This document shows positions 2,768-16,171 of a DNA stretch of 16,171 nucleotides, in pieces. The notes under the pieces are model-generated. The model had not been told where the DNA came from. It saw only the letters and a list, made by a program, of their open reading frames with translations, and searched no databases. Where the stretch lies: contig CANKZO010000039.1 in NCBI GenBank assembly GCA_947488485.1, positions 1 to 16,171 on the forward strand, written 5' to 3'. The translations under genes and the position numbers were made by a program. The stretch's first letter is position 1. Each line of letters begins with the position of its first letter. Source of the stretch: Opitutia bacterium. GTDB taxonomy: Bacteria; Verrucomicrobiota; Verrucomicrobiae; Opitutales; UBA953.

Positions 2768-4219
2768 ATGTATATTGATGATATAATAAACAAGTCAAAC
2801 TTTTTCAACCAGAAGGATAAAAAAGCTATAAAAGAAAATGGGGTTGTTTTTACAGATAGAAATATATGTGATATTATCATTAATAAAATTAATCCAAGTA
2901 TAAATGAGGTGATTTGCGAGCCAAGTGTTGGTAAAGGTGCTTTTATTTTCGCATTATTAGAGTTTTTTAGAAAAAAGCACTCAATTAATGAAGTTGCTGA
3001 TTTTGTAAATAACAATTTATTTTGTTATGATATAAATAATGAGTTTATATTAGAATTTAAGGGATTATTAAAAGAATATTTTAACCATTTTAATTATGCT
3101 GGTGAATTAGATTTAAAAAACATCATTAATGGTGATTTTTTAATCCAAAATGTCAAATATGATATTATTATTGGGAATCCCCCATATATCAGGATCCAAA
3201 ACATTGATAAAGATTATCTGGATTCTTTAAAAAAAGAATTGAAGTCCATAACATTGGGTAATGTTGATTTATATTATGCTTTTCTGGAAAAATCATTAAT
3301 GGTTGCTGACAGAATAGGGTTCATTATTCCAAATTCTTTTATAAAGAACAAATCTGCCTTCTTTATAAGGGATATTATCAAAGAAAGATTATCATATATA
3401 TATGATTTTAAAAATGATAAGGTATGGAGCAATATATCAACATATACCTCAATTGTTATTTGCGATAATGACCGTTCAGATAACCTTTTGTATGAGGCAA
3501 GTAATTTAAGTATTAATAAAAAGAAGATTGAGTTGGCTTCTGACAAATGGATCTTTGAAGATATTACTTATGGGGCAAATAAACTAATTGATATGGTTAA
3601 CTCCCATTCTGGGGGGATTGCGACAATAAAAGATGATGTATTTAAAATGGATTCATGTGATGAATCTTTCTGTTATAAAAATGGTTTTAAGATTGAGAAA
3701 GATATTTGCAAAAAATATATTAAAGCAACAACCAGCACAAATTTTGAGGATTGTAAATATATAATATATCCATATGTTGATGGTAAAATTATTGATGAGG
3801 ATCTGATTAAAACCAAATACCCGAGGTGTTATGAATATTTAGTAAGTAGGAAAAGTGATTTGCTATCCAGAGACAAAGGTAAGGTGTCAAAATATGATGC
3901 TTGGTATGCTTATGGTAGAAGACAAGGATTATTAAAAGAAAAAAAAGGCAATTGTTTAATATTGCCCTTAACTTTTTTGAGGTCAAGAAATATTCATTAT
4001 ATTGAAGTTCCGGAATCAGAGGAATGCCTGGTTGTTTCTGGAATATTAGTTGACGTAAAGCCTAATATGAAAAAAAAATTCATCAAAACAATTAGTTCTG
4101 ATGAATTTTATAAATTTTGTGAATTAAACAACAAAATATTAGCGGATAAAAATAAGCCTAATGATTGTTGGTTAAGTGTCACATCGACTACAATAAAAGA
4201 CTATTGTTATTTTCTGTGA
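2768..4219 (+). CDS. DNA adenine-N6 methyltransferase, TaqI/Eco57I-like
   Basis: This 483-aa enzyme is predicted to methylate the N6 of adenine in a specific DNA site using S-adenosylmethionine. The order of motifs is that of the gamma class. The SAM-binding motif I EPSVGKGAF is at residues 51-59, FCYDIN (motif II) at 85-90, NGDF at 121-124, and the catalytic NPPY at 137-140. A C-terminal part from about residue 300 to the end contains KSDLLSRDKGK and AWYAYGRRQGL, typical of the TaqI C-terminal target-recognition domain. The gene is preceded by a TATGTTTAT element. Its last 13 bases overlap the 3' end of the convergent gene at 4207, a possible partner nuclease. It could serve as protection from host restriction or as half of a restriction-modification pair. 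Confidence 0.92.
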   Translation: MYIDDIINKSNFFNQKDKKAIKENGVVFTDRNICDIIINKINPSINEVICEPSVGKGAFIFALLEFFRKKHSINEVADFVNNNLFCYDINNEFILEFKGLLKEYFNHFNYAGELDLKNIINGDFLIQNVKYDIIIGNPPYIRIQNIDKDYLDSLKKELKSITLGNVDLYYAFLEKSLMVADRIGFIIPNSFIKNKSAFFIRDIIKERLSYIYDFKNDKVWSNISTYTSIVICDNDRSDNLLYEASNLSINKKKIELASDKWIFEDITYGANKLIDMVNSHSGGIATIKDDVFKMDSCDESFCYKNGFKIEKDICKKYIKATTSTNFEDCKYIIYPYVDGKIIDEDLIKTKYPRCYEYLVSRKSDLLSRDKGKVSKYDAWYAYGRRQGLLKEKKGNCLILPLTFLRSRNIHYIEVPESEECLVVSGILVDVKPNMKKKFIKTISSDEFYKFCELNNKILADKNKPNDCWLSVTSTTIKDYCYFL

Positions 4220-4911: not shown

Positions 4912-6516
4912 ATGAAAATAATAATAAATGAGGCCCAGTTAAGGTTGATTATAAATGAGGAAGTTCCTTATGAACTTACAAAAGAATATTTAGATGTTGA
5001 GCGGTCCCCAGAAACAATAGCATTGCTTAATAATGTTTTCAATAAATTAAAGGATCTGCCAAATGCAAAAGTAACTAGAAGTGGGAATAGAGTTTCATTT
5101 CCTTATGAGGGTGAACCTTTGATTGATAAGATTACAAGGGTATTAGAAAGATATAAATATGAAATTAAAGATTATGCTAATAATGAAGCTATAAGATTTT
5201 CTGAAACAGAAAAGGGAACTAAGGAACAGCCAATAAAAATAACCAAAGCGTTACAGAGCATAGTTAATAAAGATTCAAGAGTTGAGAATTTATTATTTTT
5301 ATATTCAAATGTTATTTCTGGTAAAATTAATAAAAAAACCAATGACTTAATTATTGTGTTTTCAAAATTGCCGTATGATATTGCCACAATGTCACAGGAT
5401 CGTAGTTGGAAGGCAAGTTGTATGAATTTAATAGATGGTGATAATAGGCGTTATGTTAAATTAGATATTGAATACGGAACAATTATTTGTTATGTAACAA
5501 AAGAAACTGACCCTAATTTGAAAAACCCCCTTGGTCGTGTTTTAATAAAACCATTTATGAATAAGGAGAATGAAATTGTATTATATCCGGAGGCGAAAAT
5601 GTATGGTAAAATGGATGACCAAGGTGAATTAATTAAAGTTATTGATAAGTATATGGTCGATATACAAGATTTAAACGGGTTTTACAAAAGATTGGGGTGT
5701 TTATATCCTGATAGTGATAGAGATGTTGTTAGAGATAAAGAAATGGCTTCACGTTATGTTGAATATTGTATAGAATATAATGCAAAATTAAAAGAATTTG
5801 AATTCGATTCTGCAACAACTGAACAAAAATACAGGTATCTTGATTCAAGAATTAACAATAAAGAATGGTTAGCTGAACATGAATTTATGTTTGCAACAGA
5901 TGAACAAAGAAATAGATACATAGAATTTTCATTAGAAAAAGAACTTTTAAGTGATTTTGAATTTAATTTTGCAACAAGTGAACAGAAAAATAGATATGTT
6001 AATACATTACTTGATAATAATTTTGGATTGTCTGGCTTAATATTTAAGGCTGCATCAATGAAACAAAAAGAAAGGCATATTACTCTTAACAATAGAGTTC
6101 TTTATCCTAAATTATTTGAAGTTGAATACATTTCAAAAAAAGAAAAATATATACATGGTAGTTCTTGGGTTTTACTTGATTTTCCCATAAAAAAACTTCC
6201 AAACGAATTGTATATTAACGGATATTTAGATGTGGTTAATTTGAGAGAATTAACAAAAATATCAGATAAATTAATTACCGCAAGAAGTTTGACATTAAAT
6301 AATTTAACTATCACAAATATTGCAGATTACTTGGAAGTTGGCGGAGATCTAACTATAATTAATTGTAAGGATTTGACAAAATTACCAGATGGGCTGTATG
6401 TCGAGGGTGATTTGCAAATAATTAATTGTCCACAGTTTAAAAAATATACAGATGATGAATTACGTGAAATGATTCAATCAACTAATGGCGAGGTAGGGGG
6501 TAAAATAATAAAATAA
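4912..6516 (+). CDS. Tagged large protein with helical repeats and a C-terminal LRR segment
   Basis: This is a 534-aa mosaic. Residues 1-16 (MKIIINEAQLRLIINE) form an N-terminal peptide shared with other genes here and end in I-N-E. Residues 17-270 form a domain shared with the 9657 gene. Its conserved landmarks are KEQPIKITKAL, PYDIATMS, SWKASCMNLIDG, GTIICYVTKETD, NPLGRVLIKPF and EIVLYPEAKMYGK; I cannot assign it a function. Residues 295-390 hold about four 26-residue helical repeats of the form EFxFATxEQxxRYI. From about residue 425, four LRR-like units (LPxxLxVxGxLxL) lead to the C-cap KYTDDELREMIQSTNGEVGG, which the six following genes also carry. The stop overlaps the next start (TAATG). 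The protein may be a capsid-packaged cargo or structural protein, which is inference. Confidence 0.85.
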   Translation: MKIIINEAQLRLIINEEVPYELTKEYLDVERSPETIALLNNVFNKLKDLPNAKVTRSGNRVSFPYEGEPLIDKITRVLERYKYEIKDYANNEAIRFSETEKGTKEQPIKITKALQSIVNKDSRVENLLFLYSNVISGKINKKTNDLIIVFSKLPYDIATMSQDRSWKASCMNLIDGDNRRYVKLDIEYGTIICYVTKETDPNLKNPLGRVLIKPFMNKENEIVLYPEAKMYGKMDDQGELIKVIDKYMVDIQDLNGFYKRLGCLYPDSDRDVVRDKEMASRYVEYCIEYNAKLKEFEFDSATTEQKYRYLDSRINNKEWLAEHEFMFATDEQRNRYIEFSLEKELLSDFEFNFATSEQKNRYVNTLLDNNFGLSGLIFKAASMKQKERHITLNNRVLYPKLFEVEYISKKEKYIHGSSWVLLDFPIKKLPNELYINGYLDVVNLRELTKISDKLITARSLTLNNLTITNIADYLEVGGDLTIINCKDLTKLPDGLYVEGDLQIINCPQFKKYTDDELREMIQSTNGEVGGKIIK

Positions 6517-7025
6517 TGGATAGAAATACAATTGAAAAGATACTTAACTTCTTGAAAGAAAAAGAAGGCATGGAATTACCAAACAGTTGGTTTAATTCAA
6601 TAAAAAAACTTGAATTAATCAAAGAACTTGAAAACCATCCAGATGGTACGCAATATAGGTATGAGGATGATTTATATTTAGGTTATTCAAATATAAAAAA
6701 ACTTCCAAATGATTTATATGTTGATGGGTATTTGAATTTAGGGTATTGCCAACAATTAACGGAATTACCAGATAAGTTACATGTTGAAGGTAATTTGACT
6801 TTAGCGGATTGCAACCAAATAACAGAACTACCAAATAACTTATATGTTAAGAATTCTCTGATTTTAGATCGTTGCGAACAAATAACAGAACTACCAAATA
6901 ATTTATATGTTGGGCGGCAATTAATTATATATAAAACACCACTTGCAAACAGATATACGGATGATGAAATACGTAAAATAGTTGCTTCTACTGGCGGCAA
7001 AATAAAAGGATATATAAGTAGATAA
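6516..7025 (+). CDS. LRR paralogue 1 of 6
   Basis: The 169-aa protein has the shared N-cap (residues 1-50: DRNTIEKILNFLKEKEG, then a PDGTQY turn). Four LRR-like units of about 21 residues follow, with the pattern LPxxLxVxGxLxLxxC, ending in cysteines that would stack as the C/N ladder of an LRR solenoid. The C-cap (TPLANRYTDDEIRKIVASTGG) starts near residue 141. At DNA level, 33 bases at 6816-6848 recur at 6879-6911 with one mismatch and a 63-bp period, so this gene recently gained a repeat unit. There is no signal peptide. LRR solenoids usually bind protein partners; the partner is unknown. Confidence 0.85.
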   Translation: MDRNTIEKILNFLKEKEGMELPNSWFNSIKKLELIKELENHPDGTQYRYEDDLYLGYSNIKKLPNDLYVDGYLNLGYCQQLTELPDKLHVEGNLTLADCNQITELPNNLYVKNSLILDRCEQITELPNNLYVGRQLIIYKTPLANRYTDDEIRKIVASTGGKIKGYISR

Positions 7026-7468
7026 TGGAAAGAAAAACAATAGAAAATATACTTAACTTTCTGAAAGAAAAGGAAGGTAAGGAACTACCAAAGAAATGGT
7101 TTGATTCAATAAAGTTACTTAAGCTAGTTCAAAAACTTGAAAATATTCCAGATGGTGTTCAATACACACATAATGGTAATTTGAATTTAATCAGTTCAAC
7201 TATAAAAAAACTTCCAAATAACTTATATGTTGGGAATAGTTTGGGTTTAATAGATTGTACACAACTAAAAAAACTTCCAGATAATTTACATGTTGGGTAT
7301 CACTTGTACTTAAATGCTGTGGATATAACAGAACTTCCAAATAACTTATATGTTGGAGGTAATTTATTTATAAATCTGACACCACTTGCTGACAAATATA
7401 CTAATGAAGAAATAAAAGACATTGTAACCTCAACCGGGGGTGAAATAGGAGGAGAAATAATGAGATAA
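7025..7468 (+). CDS. LRR paralogue 2 of 6, the shortest
   Basis: This 147-aa copy has only three LP units (KKLPNNLYV, KKLPDNLHV, TELPNNLYV) between the N-cap and the C-cap (TPLADKYTNEEIKDIV). The N-cap (ERKTIENILNFLKEKEGKELP, then KKWFDSIK) is nearly identical to that of the 7971 copy, which points to recent duplication. Both ends overlap a neighbour by one base (TAATG), so its translation is probably coupled to theirs. A GGAGG at about 7449 lies before the following start and could help reinitiation there. Confidence 0.85.
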   Translation: MERKTIENILNFLKEKEGKELPKKWFDSIKLLKLVQKLENIPDGVQYTHNGNLNLISSTIKKLPNNLYVGNSLGLIDCTQLKKLPDNLHVGYHLYLNAVDITELPNNLYVGGNLFINLTPLADKYTNEEIKDIVTSTGGEIGGEIMR

Positions 7469-7974
7469 TGGAAAGACGAACAATAGAAAATATACTTAAC
7501 TTCCTGAAAGAAAAGGAAGGGCAAAAAATTCCATATGAATGGGTTGATTCAAAAGAAAAATTTAAATTAATTGAAGAACTTGAAAACTATCCAGATGGAA
7601 CTCAATATAGATATAATGATCATTTATATTTATGGGGAATACAAATAAAGAAACTCCCAAATAATTTACATGTTAGCGGTTTTTTGGATTTATCTTATTC
7701 AAATATACCAAAACTACCAGATAAATTATATGTTAGGGGTTATTTTAATTTAGATGGTTGTAAACAAATAACAGAACTTCCAAATAACTTACAAGTTGGG
7801 GGTGATTTGGTATTACATGGAACAAATATAACAGAGCTTCCAAATAATTTATACGTTGGAATTGATTTGTATATAGGAAATACCCCACTTGCTGATAAAT
7901 ATACAGATGAAGAGATAATAAAGATTGTTGAATCAACTAGGGGACAAATAGAAGGTCAAATATATAGAGAATGA
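7468..7974 (+). CDS. LRR paralogue 3 of 6
   Basis: This is a 168-aa copy with four LP units. The N-cap has diverged in the linker (IPYEWVDSKEKFKLIEELENY). The second unit, PKLPDKLYV, and the third, TELPNNLQV, differ from the consensus at the exposed positions, while the buried L, V and L are kept. This is the pattern expected if the surface of the solenoid is what varies. Its 3' end overlaps the next gene by four bases (ATGA) rather than one, the only such junction in the array. Confidence 0.85.
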   Translation: MERRTIENILNFLKEKEGQKIPYEWVDSKEKFKLIEELENYPDGTQYRYNDHLYLWGIQIKKLPNNLHVSGFLDLSYSNIPKLPDKLYVRGYFNLDGCKQITELPNNLQVGGDLVLHGTNITELPNNLYVGIDLYIGNTPLADKYTDEEIIKIVESTRGQIEGQIYRE

Positions 7975-8477
7975 AAAGACAAACAATAGAAAATATACTT
8001 GATTTCCTTAATACAAAGGAAAATAAAAAATTACCAAAGAAATGGTTTGATTCCGTAGAAAAACTTAAATTAATTCAAGAACTTGAAAACCATCCAGATG
8101 GAACTCAATATAAACATAGGGGGAGTTTGGATTTAAGGGATTCAACCATAAGAAAATTACCAAATGATTTACATGTTACAGGTTATTTGGATTTAAACAA
8201 ATCAAAGTTAACAAAGCTCCCAAATGATTTATACGTTGATGGTTATTTGAATTTAAGGTATTGCCAATACTTAACAGAACTTCCAGATAACTTACATGTT
8301 GAAGGTTATTTGAATTTAGCGGATTGCAAGCAATTAACAGAACTTCCAGATAATTTATATGTAGGGGGTGATTTGGGTATATATTATACACCTATAGCAC
8401 AAAAATATTCAAGTCAAGAAATAAGAGAAATGATTACCTCAAAGGGTGGAACATTAATAGGAAAAATATATAGATAA
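7971..8477 (+). CDS. LRR paralogue 4 of 6
   Basis: This 168-aa copy starts MKRQTIENILDFLNTKENKK, with Thr where its neighbours have Glu in the LKE triplet of the N-cap. It has four LP units (RKLPNDLHV, TKLPNDLYV, TELPDNLHV, TELPDNLYV). The last two pairs of repeat and linker (YCQYLTELP, DCKQLTELP) are close to each other and to units in the 6516 copy, which suggests exchange of repeats between copies. The C-cap has diverged (APIAQ-type, TPIAQKYSSQEIREMI). Confidence 0.85.
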   Translation: MKRQTIENILDFLNTKENKKLPKKWFDSVEKLKLIQELENHPDGTQYKHRGSLDLRDSTIRKLPNDLHVTGYLDLNKSKLTKLPNDLYVDGYLNLRYCQYLTELPDNLHVEGYLNLADCKQLTELPDNLYVGGDLGIYYTPIAQKYSSQEIREMITSKGGTLIGKIYR

Positions 8478-9028
8478 TGGAAAAAGAAACAATAGGAAAT
8501 ATATTAACTTTCCTCAAAGAAAAGGAAGGTAAAGAAATTCCATTGAATTGGAATTTAATTGAGAGACTTGAAACCCATCCAGATGATATTCAATATATAC
8601 ATAAGGGTTCTTTGATGCTAAAAAATTCAGATATAAAAAAATTACCAAATAAATTATATGTTGGGGGGAGTTTGTTCTTAATGGGTTGTGAACAATTAAG
8701 TGAACTCCCAAATAATTTATATGTTGATGGCGATTTTATGATGCTTTCTGGTGAAAAAATAACAGAACTACCAGATAGATTATTTGTTATGGGTTTTTTA
8801 CAATTGGCAATTGATCATAAAATATTAAAATACCCAAAGGCTCTATTTGTTAAGGACACTCTGTTTTTAACTTATACAAATATAGCAGAGTTACCAAACC
8901 AAATATTTGTTGGAGAAGATTTATTAATACAAGGCACTCCACTTGCTGACAAATACACAGATGAAGAATTATATGAAATGGCCGAATCATTAGAGGGCGG
9001 TAAAATAAGAGGTAAAATAATTAGATAA
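8477..9028 (+). CDS. LRR paralogue 5 of 6
   Basis: This is a 183-aa copy with five LP-type units, one of them degenerate (LKYPKALFV). Its N-cap linker is shortened: the WFDS helix is missing, and IPLNWNLIERLE leads straight into the HPDDIQY turn. Some units end in other residues than Cys (SGEKITELP), so the ladder is less regular. Gene junctions on both sides are TAATG. Confidence 0.84.
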   Translation: MEKETIGNILTFLKEKEGKEIPLNWNLIERLETHPDDIQYIHKGSLMLKNSDIKKLPNKLYVGGSLFLMGCEQLSELPNNLYVDGDFMMLSGEKITELPDRLFVMGFLQLAIDHKILKYPKALFVKDTLFLTYTNIAELPNQIFVGEDLLIQGTPLADKYTDEELYEMAESLEGGKIRGKIIR

Positions 9029-9657
9029 TGGAAAGAGAAACAATAAAAAACATATTAATCTTCCTAAAAAATAAGGAAGGTAAGGGATTACCACAGGGTT
9101 GGTTTAAACTTTTAACAACAGAGGAAATAATCCAAGAACTTGAAAATAAACCAGATGATGTTCAATATATACATAAGGGTGGTATATCTTTAATGAATTC
9201 AAATATAAAAAAACTTCCAAATGATTTACATGTTAGGGGTTATTTGAACTTAAATAATTGTAAACAATTAAAAGAATTACCAACTAATTTACGCGTTGAT
9301 GGTCATTTATGGCTAGAAGACACCAACATAACAAAACTTCCAGATGATTTATATGTTGCAGGTCTTTTGAATGTGCGAAATTCAAAACTAATAGAAACAC
9401 CATTTCATTTATATGTTGTTAGTACTTTGATATTAAGTTATAACAAAGAATTAATAAAAATATCAGATAAAACACATGTTGGGTATGACCTGGATTTAAG
9501 AGGTTGCATAAAGCTAAGAGAATTACCAAATGATTTATTTGTTGGTCATGATTTATATATACAAGAAACACCACTTGCAGAAAAATATATAGATGATGAA
9601 ATATATGGGATAATTGAAAATAATGGTGGTCAAATAAGAGGTAAAATAATTAGATAA
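9028..9657 (+). CDS. LRR paralogue 6 of 6, the longest
   Basis: This 209-aa copy has six units. Two are far from consensus (IETPFHLYV and IKISDKTHV). The latter resembles the TKISDKLIT unit in the C-terminal segment of the 4912 protein, a hint that these two ends of the array share ancestry. The N-cap has LKN instead of LKE. The stop overlaps the start of the tagged 9657 gene by one base, so the array is translationally linked to tagged genes on both sides. Confidence 0.85.
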   Translation: MERETIKNILIFLKNKEGKGLPQGWFKLLTTEEIIQELENKPDDVQYIHKGGISLMNSNIKKLPNDLHVRGYLNLNNCKQLKELPTNLRVDGHLWLEDTNITKLPDDLYVAGLLNVRNSKLIETPFHLYVVSTLILSYNKELIKISDKTHVGYDLDLRGCIKLRELPNDLFVGHDLYIQETPLAEKYIDDEIYGIIENNGGQIRGKIIR

Positions 9658-10916
9658 TGAAAATATTAATTAACGAAAAACAATTAAAGAATATCATAAA
9701 AGAAGCAATTCCTTATAATATCGCAAAGGAATACATAACAACTGAAAGGACTGATGCTGCCATTAAGTTGATGGATAATGTATTTAGTAAACTTAAAACT
9801 TTGCCAAATGCAAAAGTTCTTGATAGGAGGGGGGATAGAATTGCATTTCCTTATGGTGAAACACCTTTGGAAGATGATATAAAAATGTTATTGAGAAAAT
9901 ATGATTATAATGTTTTAGATTTTAATAACAATGATGCTTTAAGAATTGCCAAAACTGAAAAAGGAAATAAGGCTCAACCAATAAAAATAACCAAAGCATT
10001 AGCAAATATATCAAGATTAAAAGACAAGGATGGAAACATTATTGAACCAAAGGCAAAAAACTTTGTGGATTTATTTGCTGATGGAAAAAGTAGGGAAGGA
10101 AAAGCAATGGAAAAAAAACTTGGGCTAATTGTTATCTTTGCAAGACACCCATATGATATTGCTGGAATGTCTTATGGTAGAACTTGGAGCAGTTGTATGC
10201 ATCTAACAGATGGGCAGTTAAGAGATTTTGTTAAGAAAGATATTGAAAATGGGACAATTGCTGTGTATTTAACAAAAGCAACTGATGAAGGATTATCCAA
10301 CCCCCTAGCAAGGGTTTTGGTGAAACCATATGTTAATGTGGGAAATGAAAATGATGTTATATTATATCCAGAGGCAAAGACATATGGAAAAATAGATAAC
10401 CCAAAAAAATTTATAGATTACCTAGATTCTGTTTTGGAAAAAGTTCAAAACATAAGTGCAGATTATAAGTTATTGTCTTGTTTAAATCCTGATAGCAAAA
10501 GAGAAGTGGTAAGGCCAAAAAATAATGTAACAAGAAAAAATATTTTAGCCAAATTAGAAAATGGAGATAAACTTAATAATGTTGAACTTAATTTTTTAAC
10601 CAAGGAGGAAGCAGAAAATTATGTTGATAAACAAATTTCAATGTATTTCAAGTGGAATGCAAGATTGGACGATGCTGATTTGGACGATTTAGCGTTGACA
10701 GAAGAAGAGATTGTAATCGCTACGGATGACCAATTGGAAGATTATTTTGACCAAAGGCTTGATGATTTTGAGGGGGTAATGATGAATAAGGTTTTTGCTG
10801 AAAGGTATGTAGCAATAGATGATTTTGAATTACGTTTTATGTCAAATAAACAAATGACTAGGTATGTTGATATATTTCATGCTGCCGAGGCAAATAGGAG
10901 AAGTTATTATTTATAA
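9657..10916 (+). CDS. Tagged large protein, paralogue of the 4912 protein without LRRs
   Basis: This 419-aa protein opens with MKILINEKQLKNIIKE, a close variant of the 4912 N-terminal peptide. It shares the same unknown domain over residues 17-285 (QPIKITKAL, PYDIAGMS, TWSSCMHLTDG, NPLARVLVKPY, VILYPEAKTYGK). A roughly 30-residue insert at about 120-150 (lysine- and acid-rich, with NFVDLFADGKSREGKAME) is absent from the paralogue. The C-terminal 120 residues are acidic and helical with weak repeats (ELNFLTKEEAENYV, FELRFMSNKQMTRYV) related to the EFxFATxEQxxRY repeats of the 4912 protein. There is no LRR segment. The stop is 13 bases before the next gene. Confidence 0.85.
   Translation: MKILINEKQLKNIIKEAIPYNIAKEYITTERTDAAIKLMDNVFSKLKTLPNAKVLDRRGDRIAFPYGETPLEDDIKMLLRKYDYNVLDFNNNDALRIAKTEKGNKAQPIKITKALANISRLKDKDGNIIEPKAKNFVDLFADGKSREGKAMEKKLGLIVIFARHPYDIAGMSYGRTWSSCMHLTDGQLRDFVKKDIENGTIAVYLTKATDEGLSNPLARVLVKPYVNVGNENDVILYPEAKTYGKIDNPKKFIDYLDSVLEKVQNISADYKLLSCLNPDSKREVVRPKNNVTRKNILAKLENGDKLNNVELNFLTKEEAENYVDKQISMYFKWNARLDDADLDDLALTEEEIVIATDDQLEDYFDQRLDDFEGVMMNKVFAERYVAIDDFELRFMSNKQMTRYVDIFHAAEANRRSYYL
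10905..10914 (+). promoter_or_regulatory. Weak TATTATTTAT element before the 10930 gene
   Basis: TATTATTTAT lies at 10905-10914, inside the end of the upstream coding region. It is 15 bases before the ATG at 10930, the same spacing as the TATATTTAT elements. The match is poorer, so this may be chance in AT-rich DNA. Confidence 0.25.
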
Positions 10917-10929
10917 TAAAAAATATACA

Positions 10930-11745
10930 ATGAAAATATTAATAAATGAAACCCAGTTAAAGAACATAATAAAAGATGAATCTCTAATTAAAGGTTCTGT
11001 TGTATGGAGGCATATTAAAGATATTACTCCTGATAAAGAAATGATCCCAAATTTTTTTAAAAAAGATATTATTAGTCGTAAATTTAAAAATGTGGACGAT
11101 TTTGATATGGAATCACTATTAAATACAGACCCGGATTTTAAAGAATATTATGATGGGGGCGAAGATAGATATGGCGATGATGACGATGTAAGTCCAGGTG
11201 ATCTTTCAAATGAAATCGTAGTTGTTGATGGGATTTTACTAGATGGCTATTCAAGAGTTTCTACATTATTAAGAAATGGTGAAAAAACAACATACGCATA
11301 TGTTGCTACAAAAAAATATAATATGAATTTACAAGAGAATGTTAATAGGGTAAAGAAATTAATAAAAGAAAATTATGATATGTCTAAAACAAGACTAACT
11401 GTATCTGACAAAGGTTTTGATGGTTGGGGCCGGGTTTTAATTTTAAAAAATGAGGATAATGAAAAAATTGGATCCATAATATATAGAAGAAAAAATTATC
11501 TTGAAAGTGAAGGATTTCCATGGGTAAATGAATTGCATTTAGGATTTGATCAAAAATATCAAAGAAAGGGTTATTTTCAAGATGCAGTAATTGAGCTTTT
11601 AAAATTTACTAATAATACGCCAACATATCTAGCAACAGGCAGGGTTATCAATCCTAACGTTTTTAAAGCAATTGATAAATTAGATAGAGATATATTAGAT
11701 GTATATGAATTTGAACATTTAGGTTATATAATAACATTAAAATAA
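10930..11745 (+). CDS. Fusion of a ParB-like domain and a GNAT acetyltransferase, each with its own N-terminal tag
   Basis: The 271-aa protein starts with MKILINETQLKNIIKD. Residues 20-128 resemble a ParB/Srx-like fold ending in VVVDGILLDGYSRVSTLL, where the DG-x-SR pattern matches the catalytic loop of that superfamily. A second tag, MNLQENVNRVKKLIKE, begins at residue 132. It is followed by a GNAT N-acetyltransferase domain (about 155-271) with a motif A-like ELHLGFDQKYQRKGYFQDA, in which R/Q-x-x-G would bind acetyl-CoA. The in-frame start at 10864 lies in the previous gene, so 10930 is used. Residues 128-131 come from a former 5' leader, and the internal ATG at 11323 might still be used to make the 140-aa GNAT alone. 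Confidence 0.82.
   Translation: MKILINETQLKNIIKDESLIKGSVVWRHIKDITPDKEMIPNFFKKDIISRKFKNVDDFDMESLLNTDPDFKEYYDGGEDRYGDDDDVSPGDLSNEIVVVDGILLDGYSRVSTLLRNGEKTTYAYVATKKYNMNLQENVNRVKKLIKENYDMSKTRLTVSDKGFDGWGRVLILKNEDNEKIGSIIYRRKNYLESEGFPWVNELHLGFDQKYQRKGYFQDAVIELLKFTNNTPTYLATGRVINPNVFKAIDKLDRDILDVYEFEHLGYIITLK
11312..11346 (+). repeat. 35-bp direct repeat, copy 1, inside the ParB-GNAT gene
   Basis: This is identical over 35 bases to 11794-11828. It spans the 11 bases before an ATG and the first 24 coding bases of the MNLQENVN tag. Here it is read through as coding sequence from upstream. Confidence 0.95.
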
Positions 11746-11780
11746 AAAAATGAATTTAAGTTGTAATTATTATTTAAAGA

Positions 11781-11789
11781 TATATTTAT
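11781..11789 (+). promoter_or_regulatory. TATATTTAT element upstream of the metallopeptidase gene
   Basis: TATATTTAT lies 15 bases before the ATG at 11805, in the short gap after the 11745 stop. An A-rich leader follows. Confidence 0.5.
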
Positions 11790-11793
11790 AATT

Positions 11794-11828
11794 AAAAATA
11801 TAATATGAATTTACAAGAGAATGTTAAT
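11794..11828 (+). repeat. 35-bp direct repeat, copy 2, leader and tag of the metallopeptidase
   Basis: This is the second copy of the repeat at 11312-11346. Here it has its expected layout: an untranslated A-rich leader, then the ATG at 11805 and the start of the tag. Confidence 0.95.
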
Positions 11829-12728
11829 CGAATAAAACAAGTGATGGGGGTTCTAAATGAACAAACAAAAATAAAAGAAATACCAGTTGAAGATGAAATA
11901 TTTAAAAAACGTTATGATCCAGTAATAAGACCTTTACTTAATAAAGCCAAACAATATTATATAAAATATTATTCTGATAAAAAAAATACTTCAAAATTAA
12001 AATACAAGGATAATATTGATATAATTAAACAATTTATCTCAACAATAGATTATAAACCTTATTATGAATATAATGATAAGAAATTAGGTTTTGTAGCTCA
12101 TGATTACCCAACAGTTATGTATTTGAACATATATTATTTATTTACTCAAGAAAAATTTAATTTTACTCCAAAAACTGAAATGTTATTTAATACAATTTTT
12201 CATGAGACAGCTCATTTAATTGATCTTAGATTGCAATCTTTACATGAAAAAACAATTATGTCAACATATAACATATTTAATGTAAAAGATGATGAAGATG
12301 AATATACTGAAAATGATATGGAAACATATGCTAGGGTTCAAACTTTACGCACCAAACTTGGAATTAGTCCAACAGCAAATGGAACACAAATTAAAAATAA
12401 AATACTTGGTGCAATTAAACAAGGTAAAATTACATTCCCAGACGTTAAAGTAAAAAGTAAAGGTAATATATTGCAATTCATTAAAAAAGGTTTTACTGGA
12501 CAAGCAATAAATGATATTTTTAACACCCAAGATTTAAAATCTTTGAGGGATTTTTATTCAACAATCCGATTTAATGGAAATTATACTGATGATATATATT
12601 ATTTATTTGCAAAATTTTCAACAATAGATAATAATTCTGTTTTTCTTGATTTAGATAGACTTGGTTATGTAAACATATCCGTTGTCGATAACACAAAAAA
12701 AACAACCAACAATACTCAAGCGACGTAA
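11805..12728 (+). CDS. Tagged zinc metallopeptidase-like protein (HExxH)
   Basis: The 307-aa protein begins with the peptide MNLQENVNRIKQVMGVLNE, ending in L-N-E at residue 19. A gluzincin-like active site HETAH is at residues 133-137 within TIFHETAHLID, where the two His would bind zinc and the Glu would activate water. ENDMETYARVQTLR at 170-183 could supply the third ligand (Glu 173). The rest is rich in Lys and Tyr. It has no signal peptide, so it would act inside a cell or a virion. It ends 17 bases from the convergent gene at 12746. Substrate is unknown. The protein might process virion or host proteins if packaged, but this is inference. Confidence 0.82.
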   Translation: MNLQENVNRIKQVMGVLNEQTKIKEIPVEDEIFKKRYDPVIRPLLNKAKQYYIKYYSDKKNTSKLKYKDNIDIIKQFISTIDYKPYYEYNDKKLGFVAHDYPTVMYLNIYYLFTQEKFNFTPKTEMLFNTIFHETAHLIDLRLQSLHEKTIMSTYNIFNVKDDEDEYTENDMETYARVQTLRTKLGISPTANGTQIKNKILGAIKQGKITFPDVKVKSKGNILQFIKKGFTGQAINDIFNTQDLKSLRDFYSTIRFNGNYTDDIYYLFAKFSTIDNNSVFLDLDRLGYVNISVVDNTKKTTNNTQAT

Positions 12729-12745
12729 TTTTTTTATAACCCCAA

Positions 12746-14206
12746 TCAAAGCTCAACCCACATTAATATGGTATTATGTCCCAACTCTTTTGCGGCAACA
12801 ATCCGATGCAACCCATCACCCTCTTCTGGTATTGGTGGGGTGGAATTAAAATTTTTTTTCATATTTTCCAAATAGGAATCTTGCTCATCCTCATAACCTG
12901 GATCATTGTCATATAAATCTTGCCTGGAATAATCAAAATCTTTCAAATCTTTTTGAACCAATTGATATTCTTTGCCTTTTTTTGGAAAAACATTCCCCCC
13001 AGTATCAGGCTCATTCCCATCACTAACTATTATATCCCCAACCGAATATTTATCCATAAATTGCCCTTCAATAAGATTATGACCCTGAACCAAATTATCT
13101 TCAATATATTTAACAACTTTTTTAATGTCATTTATTTTATAAAATTTACCAACTATTTTACCATCTGCATATAATAAATATGTAGGTCTTCTATTGCCAG
13201 AAAAAGGTGTACCCTCTACTAAGCCCTCTCCAATTCTTAATTCAACGCCATTGACATTTTTTGTTGCGTATGGGTGGTCGTAATTATACATACTTTGACG
13301 TATGTCATTATTGGATTGTCCGAAAAGTTTAGTTGCGTCACCATCAGTATAATGGGATTCAATTTCTTTTTGTAATTCTTCTGCTTGTTTACTAGTTAGA
13401 AATCCGCCTTCTATCTTATCACTTACTGATAACCCAGTATTCACAATCTGGGCTATTTGATTCTCATTTAAATATTCTCTTATAGTTGTTTTAATATATC
13501 TCCCTTCCATAAGATTATGATTTTTAACCAATTCTTTAATAAAATTATTTATGCTCAAAATAATATCAGCAACCTTATCCCCAGAATCATACCTTAACTC
13601 AAATTCATTCTTTCTACGCTCCATCTTGTTCCGGTTCCCATATACACCAACGGTCTTATCCAAATCTGCAATAACAACAGATATGTGATAATCAAAATAA
13701 CCAGCCTTATCAACATTCCTTATGTTCTCCGTATGATCGGAAATCCTTAATCTAACGTGAATCCCCCCAATGGTAATATTAATGTATTTTCTTTTCCCAT
13801 ACCTCATCTGGAAATAATTCTGAACGCCATTCAATACCTCATCAGAATCCCTATTTGGGGGCTTCACTTTCCTTTTCTCAATCGTTTCAGGTTCTTCCGC
13901 ACTAATCAACTTATAAACAGTATCATCGTTGTAGTAGTAATTTATGGGATAATCTTTAATATCATCATCCTCAATGAACTTGTAATGGGTAACAACCCCC
14001 TCCATAACCACATACATATAATCATCATAATATGTCAGAACATCATCAAACCCATCAAACGCGGCCATCGCCCTAACCTTGTCAATCCCCTTATATAATA
14101 TCTCACTATAATCAGATGCTTCAAACCTTACATAATATACCGTAATGGAAGAATCCCCACTATATGCTTCCATTATTAACTCCCTACATATATTCATTAA
14201 TTTCAT
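12746..14206 (-). CDS. Tagged multi-module protein ending in a ParB-like domain
   Basis: This 486-aa protein starts MKLMNICRELIME, with an I-M-E at residue 13. Three modules follow. Residues 14-234 have an unknown fold. Residues 235-380 start with a tag-like IKTTIREYLNE. Residues 381-486 carry DGLHRIVAAKELGHNTI near the C-terminus, like the DG-x-HR loop of ParB/Srx-like domains. The modules are separated by HNLMEGRY (234) and HNLIEGQF (380), each with an (L/I)-x-E site. The stretches before these (about 137-234 and 312-380) look like diverged copies of one another. The 17-base gap to the upstream 14224 gene suggests one transcript from the promoter at 14764. I know of no function for the first two modules. 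Confidence 0.8.
   Translation of the reverse strand: MKLMNICRELIMEAYSGDSSITVYYVRFEASDYSEILYKGIDKVRAMAAFDGFDDVLTYYDDYMYVVMEGVVTHYKFIEDDDIKDYPINYYYNDDTVYKLISAEEPETIEKRKVKPPNRDSDEVLNGVQNYFQMRYGKRKYINITIGGIHVRLRISDHTENIRNVDKAGYFDYHISVVIADLDKTVGVYGNRNKMERRKNEFELRYDSGDKVADIILSINNFIKELVKNHNLMEGRYIKTTIREYLNENQIAQIVNTGLSVSDKIEGGFLTSKQAEELQKEIESHYTDGDATKLFGQSNNDIRQSMYNYDHPYATKNVNGVELRIGEGLVEGTPFSGNRRPTYLLYADGKIVGKFYKINDIKKVVKYIEDNLVQGHNLIEGQFMDKYSVGDIIVSDGNEPDTGGNVFPKKGKEYQLVQKDLKDFDYSRQDLYDNDPGYEDEQDSYLENMKKNFNSTPPIPEEGDGLHRIVAAKELGHNTILMWVEL
13064..13520 (-). repeat. Two near-identical 19-bp copies marking the module boundaries
   Basis: The bases at 13064-13082 and 13502-13520 match at 18 of 19 positions. 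They encode the HNL(I/M)EG boundaries of the 12746-14206 protein. Confidence 0.8.
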
Positions 14207-14223
14207 AACTTATCTTGATAAAC

Positions 14224-14751
14224 TTACATAATATTATCCTGTTTCAATTCCATTATAACAGTATTAATTCCAAAATTATCATCTTTTTCATCAATAATTT
14301 TAATATCATATTTTAACCCAAATTTAGATTTTAAAAAATTTATAAAACTTGTTGAAGAATAAATTCTTCCCATTTGTGATGTTCTCCCCCTAAAAACAAA
14401 TTTATCAATATTACCAAATTTTTTCATATACTCTTTCAATACATCAGGTAATTTTCTTATTGCATCTATAAATATTTTTGATTTTTCACTGTCAGATAAA
14501 CTACGATCCCACCTATTAAAATCATCTCTTAGTTCCAAATAGGGATATAAATGCACAAATGTAAAACCATCTAATTCCACATCATCAAATATATATTGAA
14601 ACCCTACCTTATTTTTACTATCCCATATAATCACCTTCTCTTTAGTCATAGAACGATAATTCTCATCATCACCATAAACATTTCGTTTAAATGTAGATTT
14701 GGCATCGAACAGTTCATTTACAATAGTTTCAATAATAGATATTAGTTTCAT
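14224..14751 (-). CDS. Tagged protein of unknown function, 175 aa
   Basis: The protein opens with MKLISIIETIVNE, a 13-residue hydrophobic and acidic peptide ending in V-N-E. A soluble, mixed alpha/beta body with many aromatic residues follows (VGFQYIFDDVELDGFTFVHLYPYLELRDD). A later segment, KFVFRGRTSQMGRIYSSTSF, precedes two strands (LKYDIKIIDE, NTVIMELKQ). I recognise no catalytic motif. The start is well placed: the ATG lies 12 bases after the minus-strand copy of the palindromic promoter element. It is the first gene of a two-gene minus-strand unit with the multi-module gene at 14206. Confidence 0.75.
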   Translation of the reverse strand: MKLISIIETIVNELFDAKSTFKRNVYGDDENYRSMTKEKVIIWDSKNKVGFQYIFDDVELDGFTFVHLYPYLELRDDFNRWDRSLSDSEKSKIFIDAIRKLPDVLKEYMKKFGNIDKFVFRGRTSQMGRIYSSTSFINFLKSKFGLKYDIKIIDEKDDNFGINTVIMELKQDNIM

Positions 14752-14763
14752 TTTTTTTTATTT

Positions 14764-14779
14764 ATAAATATATATTTAT
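14764..14779. promoter_or_regulatory. Palindromic divergent promoter element
   Basis: ATAAATATATATTTAT is a perfect 16-bp palindrome in the 42-bp gap between two divergent tagged genes. On the + strand, TATATTTAT (14771-14779) lies 14 bases before the ATG at 14794. On the minus strand, the same word (complement of 14764-14772) lies 12 bases before the ATG at 14751. One site can thus serve both genes. Confidence 0.5.
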
Positions 14780-14793
14780 GTTAAAATAATAAT

Positions 14794-15348
14794 ATGAATA
14801 TACAAGAATATATAATAAGAATAAAGCAAGTAATGAATATAAATGAGGATAAAGATTTAATTGATAATCTTGACCTATATGAGATTGCAAGATGGGGGTT
14901 GGAGGGTGAGTATGAACATAGTTCATGCTGGGATGACAATGAAGATTTGGAAGGCGCAATTAACTGTGCTGTTGAGAGTTTCAAATACTTCCTATCAAAA
15001 CCATATCCTGTTGAACTGGGGGATATTCCAGACATGCCCATAATATATCGTTTAGTTAGATTAAAGGATGTGAATAATCTGGATAGGATAAGGTTGGGTA
15101 AAAGTTGGTTTTCAAATCCTAATCAAATCAATAATCCAGAATTTTTCGATATGCTTGATTATTTAAAACCATTTAAAACAGAAGAGGGGGTTGTATATAT
15201 GATTAAGGGTCAAACCAGCAAAGATAATATTGATATGAAAAGAACTTTATGGGAGCGTGACACCCAATGGTGGGAAAATGAGATTCTATTAATTGATGAT
15301 TCAAATGTAAAAATACTTTCAGTCAAACCACTATCCAAATTGGATTAG
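14794..15348 (+). CDS. Tagged ADP-ribosyltransferase-like protein (R-S-E type)
   Basis: The 184-aa protein begins MNIQEYIIRIKQVMNINE, a variant of the MNLQENVNRIK tag ending in I-N-E. The body has the three marks of the arginine-type ADP-ribosyltransferase (ART) fold in order: an Arg at the end of the first strand (IIYRLVR, Arg 86), a W-F-S in place of S-T-S (residues 105-107), and an E-x-E on a late strand (WWENEILL, Glu 161 and Glu 163). These would bind NAD and transfer ADP-ribose to a target protein. Residues 19-80 form an acidic helical region of unknown role. T4 Alt, a head-packaged ADP-ribosyltransferase that modifies host RNA polymerase, is the obvious analogy. The fold call is by motif only. 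Confidence 0.7.
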   Translation: MNIQEYIIRIKQVMNINEDKDLIDNLDLYEIARWGLEGEYEHSSCWDDNEDLEGAINCAVESFKYFLSKPYPVELGDIPDMPIIYRLVRLKDVNNLDRIRLGKSWFSNPNQINNPEFFDMLDYLKPFKTEEGVVYMIKGQTSKDNIDMKRTLWERDTQWWENEILLIDDSNVKILSVKPLSKLD

Positions 15349-15362
15349 AATTTTTATTTATA

Positions 15363-15371
15363 TATATTTAT
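15363..15371 (+). promoter_or_regulatory. TATATTTAT element upstream of the 15386 gene
   Basis: TATATTTAT lies 14 bases before the ATG at 15386. The 25 bases that begin here, through the start codon, are nearly identical to those at 14771 (TTATGTTAAAATAAxAATATG in both). Confidence 0.5.
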
Positions 15372-15385
15372 GTTAAAATAACAAT

Positions 15386-15907
15386 ATGAAATTATTAATT
15401 AATAAATCCCAATTAAAAGATATTATAATCGAATCAAAAAATTATGCCATTGTTGATTTTCTTTTAAATAAAAATTTCATAAATCCCAGGAGCAAACAAT
15501 TTCTTTATCATGGAACCCACAAACACCCAAGCGAATTTTTTTTAAAAGATGATTATGATTATGATGATAAAGAATATGAATATAGCGGAGACCTGCCAGA
15601 AGGTTATATTTTCTTAACCACAAGCATTGAAGAAGCATCAGCATACGGAATGTATGTTATCCCATTCGAATTGAAACGATATGATAACAAAACATTTAAG
15701 GTAGATGATTTCCCATCCAGAGTGTTTGATAGAGATTATGGAATTGATCTATATACAAATGATAAAGATTATGGCTTCTGGGATAAGTTTGAAAATAGCG
15801 GAAAACATAACCTCATTATAACCGGCAAAGGCCGCTCAACAGTTATAACAGATATATTTAATGCCATACCAAGAACAGACCTTGCCATAGAATTTTATAA
15901 ACAATAA
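15386..15907 (+). CDS. Tagged ADP-ribosyltransferase-like protein (H-Y type)
   Basis: The 173-aa protein opens with MKLLINKSQLKDIIIE, ending in I-I-E. FLYHGT at 39-44 matches the first-strand His of the diphtheria-toxin/PARP/KptA branch of the ADP-ribosyltransferase fold. GYIFLTTSIEEASAYG at 73-88 matches the strand, Thr-Thr-Ser and Tyr-bearing helix that bind NAD. I cannot place the third, acidic residue with confidence. A very acidic, Tyr-rich loop (DDYDYDDKEYEYSGD) lies between the two motifs. Its leader and promoter element nearly copy those of the adjacent 14794 gene, which suggests they were acquired or duplicated as promoter-tag cassettes. It may modify a host protein or nucleic acid. 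Confidence 0.68.
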   Translation: MKLLINKSQLKDIIIESKNYAIVDFLLNKNFINPRSKQFLYHGTHKHPSEFFLKDDYDYDDKEYEYSGDLPEGYIFLTTSIEEASAYGMYVIPFELKRYDNKTFKVDDFPSRVFDRDYGIDLYTNDKDYGFWDKFENSGKHNLIITGKGRSTVITDIFNAIPRTDLAIEFYKQ

Positions 15908-15971: not shown

Positions 15972-15999
15972 ATAATATTTAAAAGGTAATGTAGGGGGG

Positions 16000-16171
16000 T
16001 TATACATGATATATTAACTTTGCTTTTTGATATGCTTCTGATGCTTCACCTGGGGTGTCAAATGAACCAAGGTATATTTGTTTATCTGCTACACGTATTT
16101 GTGATACATATTTTCCACTTGCTTTACGAAATGAATAACCTTTTACATCTTTTTGATTTCTTTTCGCCTTA
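16000..16171 (-). CDS. C-terminal fragment with an AP2 domain, probably an HNH homing endonuclease
   Basis: Reading the minus strand from the right edge gives an open frame of 56 codons and a TAA at 16000-16002. The translation contains GYSFRKASGKYVSQIR, then IYLGSFDTPGEASEAY and a final KAKLIYHV. This is the DNA-binding AP2/ERF-like domain that phage and bacterial HNH homing endonucleases carry at the C-terminus. The strands GKYVSQIRV and KQIYLGSF and the helix EASEAYQKA are all visible. The nuclease part would lie beyond the window. It is convergent with the 15386 gene. Such genes are selfish elements that often sit between phage genes. Confidence 0.8.
   Translation of the reverse strand, partial: KAKRNQKDVKGYSFRKASGKYVSQIRVADKQIYLGSFDTPGEASEAYQKAKLIYHV

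Follow-up and report, generated by a model that had tools for sequence, protein, structure and literature searches.

In bacteriophage T4, N-terminal propeptides of 10 to 19 residues direct internal proteins to the core of the prohead, the prohead protease gp21 cuts after L/I-x-E, and in IPIII an Asp at the position of the Glu inhibits processing while still allowing targeting (excerpts of PMC9026906). The internal proteins Ip1-3 have only the leader in common and inhibit restriction enzymes (excerpt of PMC12373910), and for ADP-ribosyltransferases (ARTs), frequent packaging in the heads of myoviruses has been inferred (excerpt of PMC9503650). When we compared the sequences, T4 IPII and IPIII shared MKTYQEFIAE/A, where the slash, here and below, marks the known or predicted cut. 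Here we describe a stretch of 16,171 nucleotides (the window; contig CANKZO010000039.1 of assembly GCA_947488485.1, filed under an Opitutia bacterium) in which eight proteins with unrelated bodies open with short amphipathic peptides, most of them ending in [ILV]-x-E. Judged from sequence, these start peptides, hereafter tags, are very probably cleavable capsid-targeting propeptides on a set of cargo proteins, a counterpart of the T4 internal proteins at genome scale.

As in T4 IPI, IPII, IPIII and Alt, a short N-terminal leader ending in L/I-x-E is carried by otherwise unrelated proteins, and relatives of the window share with T4 an S77 protease and a capsid protein with the same motif; T4 also has an injected ART, Alt. 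Unlike T4, which tags a handful of proteins, these relatives carry 34 to 73 called genes per genome and at least five tag classes, and their tags mostly differ from the T4 capsid-targeting sequence (CTS), swap between homologous cargoes and occur inside fused open reading frames (ORFs). A second point of reference is the group of giant phages around phiKZ and SPN3US, whose heads hold many ejection proteins that a relative of gp21 cleaves on the C-terminal side of Glu; the SPN3US paralogs gp53 and gp54 even share an identical 15-residue N-terminus. The propeptides described there differ from the tags in being mostly long (111 to 254 residues, with two short ones of 20 and 24) and, in SPN3US, in ending in A-x-E. 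A third is the polyvalent proteins (excerpts of PMC5512222), which have an overlapping repertoire of ART, zincin-like peptidase and ParB-like domains and are likewise predicted to be packaged and injected. Fused relatives that recall them by eye occur here too, as ParB-tag-ART (P0087) and GNAT-ART (P0072), but unlike polyvalent proteins the cargoes are mostly separate genes united by a tag rather than by fusion. A prohead protease has also been described in freshwater Bacteroidetes phages, which reach 331 kb (excerpts of PMC9723584). The principle is already known from T4; we found no description of a genome-wide, multi-class and exchangeable form in other giant phages in the accessible parts of the open-licence literature.

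ORFs were found in the window at the positions where a first-pass annotation had placed the eight proteins and one internal start, and as that annotation had it, they open with peptides of three forms. Class A begins the proteins at 4912, 9657, 10930 and 15386 (named here by their start positions); class B begins 11805 and 14794 and recurs at the internal start 11323; class C begins 14751 on the minus strand and, judged by resemblance, 14206 on the same strand. The motif [LIV]-x-E closes eight of these nine starts (seven of the eight proteins plus internal 11323), so the claim that most of the peptides end in this way was borne out, as was the exception noted for the 10930 protein, which has Asp at P1, the residue before the cut (IIKD-E). 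For scoring, tag profiles were built from five other genomes, leaving the window out, with thresholds set on internal and shuffled control segments to allow two control hits per class. These profiles called seven of the eight proteins and internal 11323, and left the 14206(-) start uncalled, its best score being 4.2 bits against a class C threshold of 10.2.

The five genomes are related phage contigs of 269 to 309 kb (G001, G004, G006, G007 and G011; 1,734 genes in total), in which residues 2 to 31 of all proteins were compared all against all, counting pairs with a score of at least 40 and excluding those with homologous bodies. Unrelated bodies were joined by 64, 142, 111, 52 and 209 N-terminal pairs in the five contigs, compared with 2, 5, 3, 4 and 5 pairs of internal segments and 0, 3, 6, 3 and 3 pairs of shuffled N-termini; sharing of tags between unrelated bodies, which the first-pass annotation had proposed from eight proteins, therefore goes well beyond chance. 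Profiles called 276 of the 1,734 genes as tagged (34/350, 61/359, 60/371, 48/323 and 73/331), falling into five tag classes and 208 body families and clustered in certain parts of each genome. In control phages there was little or no such excess: phiKZ, unlike the tagged phages, showed no N-terminal sharing (0 N-terminal against 1 internal pair), crAss001 (100 of 103 kb) gave 1 against 1, and Bacillus phage G (400 of 498 kb) gave 16 against 6, an excess without a common leader cluster. It might be supposed that the tagged proteins are paralogs that keep an ancestral N-terminus, or that they resemble each other by chance, given that [LIV]xE is common anyway and stands at residues 10 to 30 in 35% of untagged proteins. 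However, pairs with homologous bodies had been excluded, the tagged genes span 208 body families, and one and the same body can bear different tags (see below). With the excess over internal and shuffled controls and the behavior of the control phages, we rejected chance and paralogy, which we consider extremely unlikely.

Searches with degenerate DNA patterns extended the distribution beyond these genomes. A class B pattern covering the first 14 residues matched 112 IMG/VR stretches, in which it precedes many unrelated bodies, a class A2 pattern (RLTESDLxxIVxxV) matched at least 120, and a strict class A1 pattern matched 5. In the GTDB genome collection, the class B pattern found no match and the class A2 pattern found two, both on the same contig, from a Prochlorococcus single-cell assembly; this contig holds several tag-like starts and by eye looks like a co-sorted phage. 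On these counts a bacterial signal peptide was rejected, and the tags are nearly restricted to viral contigs. Neither a megablast of the whole window nor a tblastn of a 20-residue tag consensus, the latter an insensitive search, found a match in INPHARED. Relatives of the 9657 protein were found in IMG/VR: L115, on a 76-kb contig, matches at 90% across residues 1 to 191, and L113 and L114 (on G001 of 270 kb and G002 of 201 kb) match at 75% over nearly the full length. Homologs of 9657 and 11805 are adjacent in G001.

We asked whether the motif at the tag end is constrained, defining each tag only by residues upstream of the motif and counting one representative per body family. For the class B pattern, [LIV]-x-E was present in 31 of 36 body families, compared with an average of 9% further into the same proteins and with a shuffled mean of 30% and maximum of 50%. 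Class A2 had it in 38 of 42 families, class A1 in 22 of 35 and class D in 14 of 20; for class B within the five genomes the figure was 12 of 19, a value equalled by one shuffle in 500 to 1,000. In a larger A2 set (loci L305 to L422, with two earlier loci uncounted and two matches without a near ATG dropped), the motif was found in 90 of 90 body families against 3 to 8% further in, and other last residues after [LIV]-x gave, at the same place, D 1, Q 7, S 15, N 24 and K 28 of 90. Across 127 distinct A2 bodies, P1 was always Glu and P3 always Ile, Leu or Val (127/127 each), while P2 (N 39, K 37, S 19) and P1′ (Q 46, E 20, S 18, N 17) were mixed and the conserved tag residues used many synonymous codons. 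Such a pattern, with P1 and P3 fixed, P2 and P1′ mixed and codons varied, is that of a protease site and points to selection on the peptide rather than on the DNA.

The variation in codons also bears on whether the tags might instead be the coding end of a DNA module, in which a promoter and the first codons travel together by recombination for the sake of expression. Consistent with a DNA module, TATTTAT lies within 60 nucleotides upstream of 54% of 275 tagged genes in the five contigs, compared with 20% of 1,435 untagged genes and 5 to 6% of shuffles, mostly 4 to 6 or 13 to 17 nucleotides ahead of the ATG, and within 45 nucleotides of the start in six of the eight window genes; it could be a promoter near or at leaderless starts. 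Yet the amino acids are fixed while synonymous codons vary, on which ground DNA-level hitch-hiking was rejected, the upstream DNA of tagged loci differs apart from this short element, and in class B the motif is retained although the length of the tag varies (Glu at residues 17 to 20). A module acting through DNA alone is therefore very unlikely.

Tags and bodies behave as separate modules. Among the 54 homologs of 14794, one body stands behind leaders that by eye belong to class A (P0002), class B (P0001, P0045), class C (P0003, P0008) and a T4-like type (P0017, P0033, P0041), and homologs among the 42 of 15386 likewise bear A, B, C and T4-like leaders, also classed by eye. Twelve of the 54 homologs were excluded, 7 because the body is preceded by fewer than 10 residues; [LIV]xE was then found in 37 of 41 distinct 14794-family leaders, compared with 6 of 41 body stretches of the same length and with 4 to 23 of 41 for other last residues; with 4 of the 42 set aside (2 of them untagged), the 15386 family had it in 34 of 35 distinct leaders and 0 of 35 body stretches. 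The 11805 body recurs behind class A2 tags in L414 and L103. Altogether, 199 homologous pairs carry different tag class labels, for example ..IINE/GLHDTSW, ..LLKE/GLHDTSW and ..LQKE/GLHDTSW; these pairs are non-independent, and part of them reflect confusion between the A2 and C labels. Where tags are swapped, they join the bodies just after the Glu of the motif. Two homologs, P0035 and P0028, have no tag at the N-terminus but bear one further in or at the C-terminus, and in P0087 a ParB-like part is linked to an ART-like body through ..FILSE/S, much as the 10930 ORF links a ParB-like part to a GNAT-like one.

The first-pass annotation had proposed looking for a gp21-like protease and a scaffold in tag-bearing genomes, and the protease, as well as a long gene at the scaffold position, was found in the contigs of relatives, on which the link of the window to a protease rests. 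Peptidase_S77 exceeded its cut-off in 21 of 23 contigs of at least 200 kb with class A or B tags (12/12 in a first set and 9/11 in a second), and the T4 capsid protein Gp23 was found in the same 12 long contigs of the first set; in T4 itself, the search found the S77 protease. A conserved N-terminal region of the capsid proteins closes with ..QLYENQAS.LINE/A in 10 of 10 aligned sequences (G001 and G008, near-copies of G002 and G012, were omitted) and is followed by a variable stretch. The corresponding sequences are ..FLTE/AE in T4 gp23 and ..HQINE/N in the capsid protein of the uncultured 642-kb phage LR756502, and we take the ..LINE/A to be a predicted cleavage site with the same motif as the tags. 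The long gene between the protease and the capsid protein, which is the position of the scaffold in T4, ranks high in [LIV]xE density among genes of at least 300 amino acids (aa): 1/71 in G001, 1 and 7 of 69 in the two modules of G004, 3/79 in G006, 1/86 in G007 and 2/86 in G011. None of 35 core genes was tagged (polymerase, helicase, reductase large chain, portal, sheath, capsid and protease families; 35 of 37 matches were in the gene lists). With the motif constraint, the S77 protease and capsid motif in relatives, and the swapping of tags, this sparing of core genes lends support to the earlier proposal that the peptides are packaging tags. Terminase_6C had no match in 8 records. In the 269-kb contig G004, the S77 protease, Gp23 and the T4-type portal each occur twice, which may represent either two head modules or a chimeric assembly.

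Pfam and PHROGs searches of the tagged window proteins gave only matches that were below cut-off or of unknown function. The GNAT-like part behind 11323 matched Acetyltransf_3 below the curated cut-off (E 4e-4), and the 11805 protein has a HETAH motif and is metallopeptidase-like by eye, with no Pfam family. The 14794 family has invariant Y85-R86, S104 and E161 and a near-invariant E163, an R..S..ExE-like pattern, and matched no ART family in Pfam; the 15386 family has an invariant H-G-T and a weak match to ART-PolyVal in 10 of 35 members (best E 0.0053), the window's own protein not among them. Structure models of both (mean predicted local distance difference test, pLDDT, 88.5 for 14794 and 85.7 for 15386) had high confidence over the body but low confidence over the tag, and a PDB sequence search with both families returned nothing credible. 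The conserved residues and the weak Pfam match suggest that both may be ART-like. Of the effector bodies named by the first-pass annotation, then, the GNAT stands as a sub-cut-off match and the ART folds as putative, and the activities are partly guesses. Among tagged representatives more widely (144 of 204 scanned, at E 1e-4 or better), 35 Pfam families were matched, with M23 peptidase (3) and ART-PolyVal (2) most frequent among the matches listed and single matches to lysozymes, Tae4, PPK2 (whose tag is marginal), GNAT, sigma-70 regions and others. The small chain of ribonucleotide reductase, also called as tagged, at first looked like a counter-example and was dropped, its call being marginal (1.5 bits over threshold) and its start lacking the terminal motif.

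Peptidoglycan hydrolases among the tagged proteins would fit a role in the tail or envelope as well, and in other systems amphipathic helices at the N-terminus act as signals for loading or for the membrane. It is therefore conceivable that the tags direct proteins elsewhere, to the tail tube, the inner membrane or a replication compartment, with the prohead protease uninvolved. We consider this unlikely, since it leaves unexplained the fixed P3 and P1 with variable P2 and P1′, the junctions with bodies right after the Glu, and the presence of the same motif in the capsid protein.

Several further observations weigh against capsid-targeting propeptides. A head location is less obvious for the tagged cell-wall hydrolases and, marginally, for the PPK2 protein. 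The motif is absent from 13 of 35 A1 families, 6 of 20 D families and 7 of the 19 class B families within the five genomes, as well as from 4 of 41 leaders in the 14794 family and 1 of 35 in the 15386 family, and class C was left out of the motif test because its definition contains the motif, which would be circular. Seven of the 54 homologs of 14794 and two of the 42 of 15386 have no N-terminal tag, and the four relatives of the 9657 body that were checked in other jumbo phages start without one. In the N-terminal comparison, T4 does not rise above background (4 N-terminal against 3 internal pairs); since T4 has an S77 protease and few internal proteins, the comparison is evidently blind to small sets. 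No S77 match was found in two of the long tagged contigs (208 and 274 kb), and six of the 18 tagged contigs of the first set, all below 200 kb, have neither S77 nor Gp23; because both are missing from the same six, these short contigs look like fragments without the head region. Lastly, no virion proteomics or protease assay for the tagged clade was found in the literature.

The sequences themselves show that tags and cargoes are separate modules, that the motif is constrained, that tags are exchanged, that in relatives they co-occur with the protease and the capsid protein, that the core genes examined are free of them and that they are nearly confined to viral contigs. We infer packaging, core binding, cleavage, ejection and host targets, and the course of events would be as follows. 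During head assembly, the tags would bring unrelated proteins to the prohead core, where the S77 (gp21-like) prohead protease would cut after [LIV]-x-E and release the mature protein inside the head. Mature cargo would then leave the head together with the DNA when the next host is infected, and its ART-like, GNAT-like, ParB-like and metallopeptidase-like members would act on the host. Where a fused ORF contains an internal tag, its product would be split into its units, the 10930 protein, with Asp in place of Glu, would be packaged yet remain untrimmed, and tags and cargoes, as separate modules, would recombine at the cleavage site.

Leaders resembling the T4 CTS were observed on many genes of four other uncultured phages, LR756502 (642 kb), LR756504 (636 kb), G031 (385 kb) and G032 (242 kb). 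The window classes A, B and C are unlike the T4 CTS, whereas by eye these leaders (E-type), described below for LR756502, and those of some homologs (P0017, P0033, P0041 and P0070) resemble it. In the 400 kb of LR756502 that were read, there were 96 N-terminal against 13 internal pairs and an N-terminal cluster of 67 genes, whose leader, among the 40 listed, is mostly different from the classes above and T4-like; a regular expression found the leader in 78 of 491 genes, whereas internally placed matches numbered 13 of 440. S77 reached its cut-off in none of the E-type-tagged giants searched (0/3 contigs, plus 0/2 for LR756504 and LR756502), and four of these five had a weak S77 match in a frame of about 700 to 770 aa.

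A bolder reading, evenly poised in our estimation when all of its parts are taken together, is that delivery in giant T4-like phages is combinatorial and works through a small set of exchangeable, cleavable address peptides. It would comprise at least six tag classes, counting the T4-like one of the 642-kb phage, with about 30 to 70 different proteins loaded per head and hundreds of cargo families moving between phages by recombination at the protease site. Tandem fusions with internal tags would be polyproteins split by the prohead protease in the capsid, and the class of a tag may decide where in the core, or in which order, its cargo is placed. Many giant-phage genes have no assigned function or place, and if the tags are what we propose, the tag alone would predict the injected arsenal of uncultured phages from sequence and make hundreds of families testable as injected proteins, some of which likely act early in infection on the defenses or metabolism of the host. 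What T4 does with the internal proteins of a few genes would then extend to a genome-wide, exchangeable delivery code, and large phage heads could be loaded with proteins by means of such natural tags.

Table 1. Tags and tag-like stretches in the window, with the proteins that bear them and their scores against window-free profiles.
Feature	Position	Strand	Protein or ORF	End of peptide	Profile score or basis
Class A tag MKIIINEAQLRLIINE	4912..4959	+	534-aa protein, 4912-6516	..RLIINE/E	A1 profile, 21.6 bits (threshold 8.8)
Class A tag MKILINEKQLKNIIKE	9657..9704	+	419-aa protein, 9657-10916	..NIIKE/A	25.0 bits
Class A tag, Asp at expected P1	10930..10980	+	ORF, 10930-11745	..NIIKD-E	23.1 bits
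Internal class B tag MNLQENVNRVKKLIKE	11323..11370	+	within the 10930 ORF	..KLIKE/N	23.3 bits (threshold 8.1)
Class B tag MNLQENVNRIKQVMGVLNE	11805..11861	+	307-aa protein, 11805-12728	..GVLNE/Q	35.8 bits
Class C-like tag MKLMNICRELIME	14168..14206	-	486-aa protein, 12746-14206	..ELIME/A	by-eye resemblance only (compare MKLINTYRTILNE, P0062)
Internal class C-like tag MEGRYIKTTIREYLNE	13463..13510	-	within the 14206(-) protein		below threshold; form as in ..ATTIREYLNE leaders (P0011, others)
Class C tag MKLISIIETIVNE	14713..14751	-	175-aa protein, 14224-14751	..TIVNE/L	12.5 bits (threshold 10.2)
Class B tag MNIQEYIIRIKQVMNINE	14794..14847	+	184-aa ART-like protein, 14794-15348	..MNINE/D	25.3 bits
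Class A tag MKLLINKSQLKDIIIE	15386..15433	+	173-aa ART-like protein, 15386-15907	..DIIIE/S	15.5 bits

Two window proteins contain a second tag or tag-like stretch (Table 1). The 10930 ORF consists of a body that is ParB-like by eye, fused in frame through the internal tag to the GNAT-like part; the other window proteins are single units where this was determined. The DNA around the internal start (aaaaaatataatATGAATTTACAAGAGAATGTTAAT; window 11290-11345) is a near-repeat of the 11790-11845 region at the start of 11805, and because of this near-repetition it seems that the 11323 start region and its tag are a recent copy, later fused in frame with the upstream gene. Inside the 14206(-) protein, the tag-like stretch GRYIKTTIREYLNE, with its Met at 13510, scored under the thresholds.

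Between 6516 and 9657, the window holds six tandem paralogs with leucine-rich-like repeats (LPNNLYVGG..), all with a similar amphipathic start helix (for example, MERKTIENILNFLKEKEG). Their starts mostly hold L-K-E, and none was called as a tag by the profiles. A 39-member N-terminal cluster in G001 consists mostly of genes that resemble these paralogs. A palindromic AT-rich intergenic stretch at 14751-14794 (ATAAATATATATTTAT) separates two divergent tagged genes and is a possible two-way promoter. Modification and homing-type genes adjoin the window's bank of putative cargo genes: an ORF that is cytosine-methyltransferase-like by eye (39-842), an Eco57I-type N6-methyltransferase (2768-4219) and, on the minus strand at 15992-16171, a C-terminal piece that is AP2-like by eye and is cut by the end of the window.

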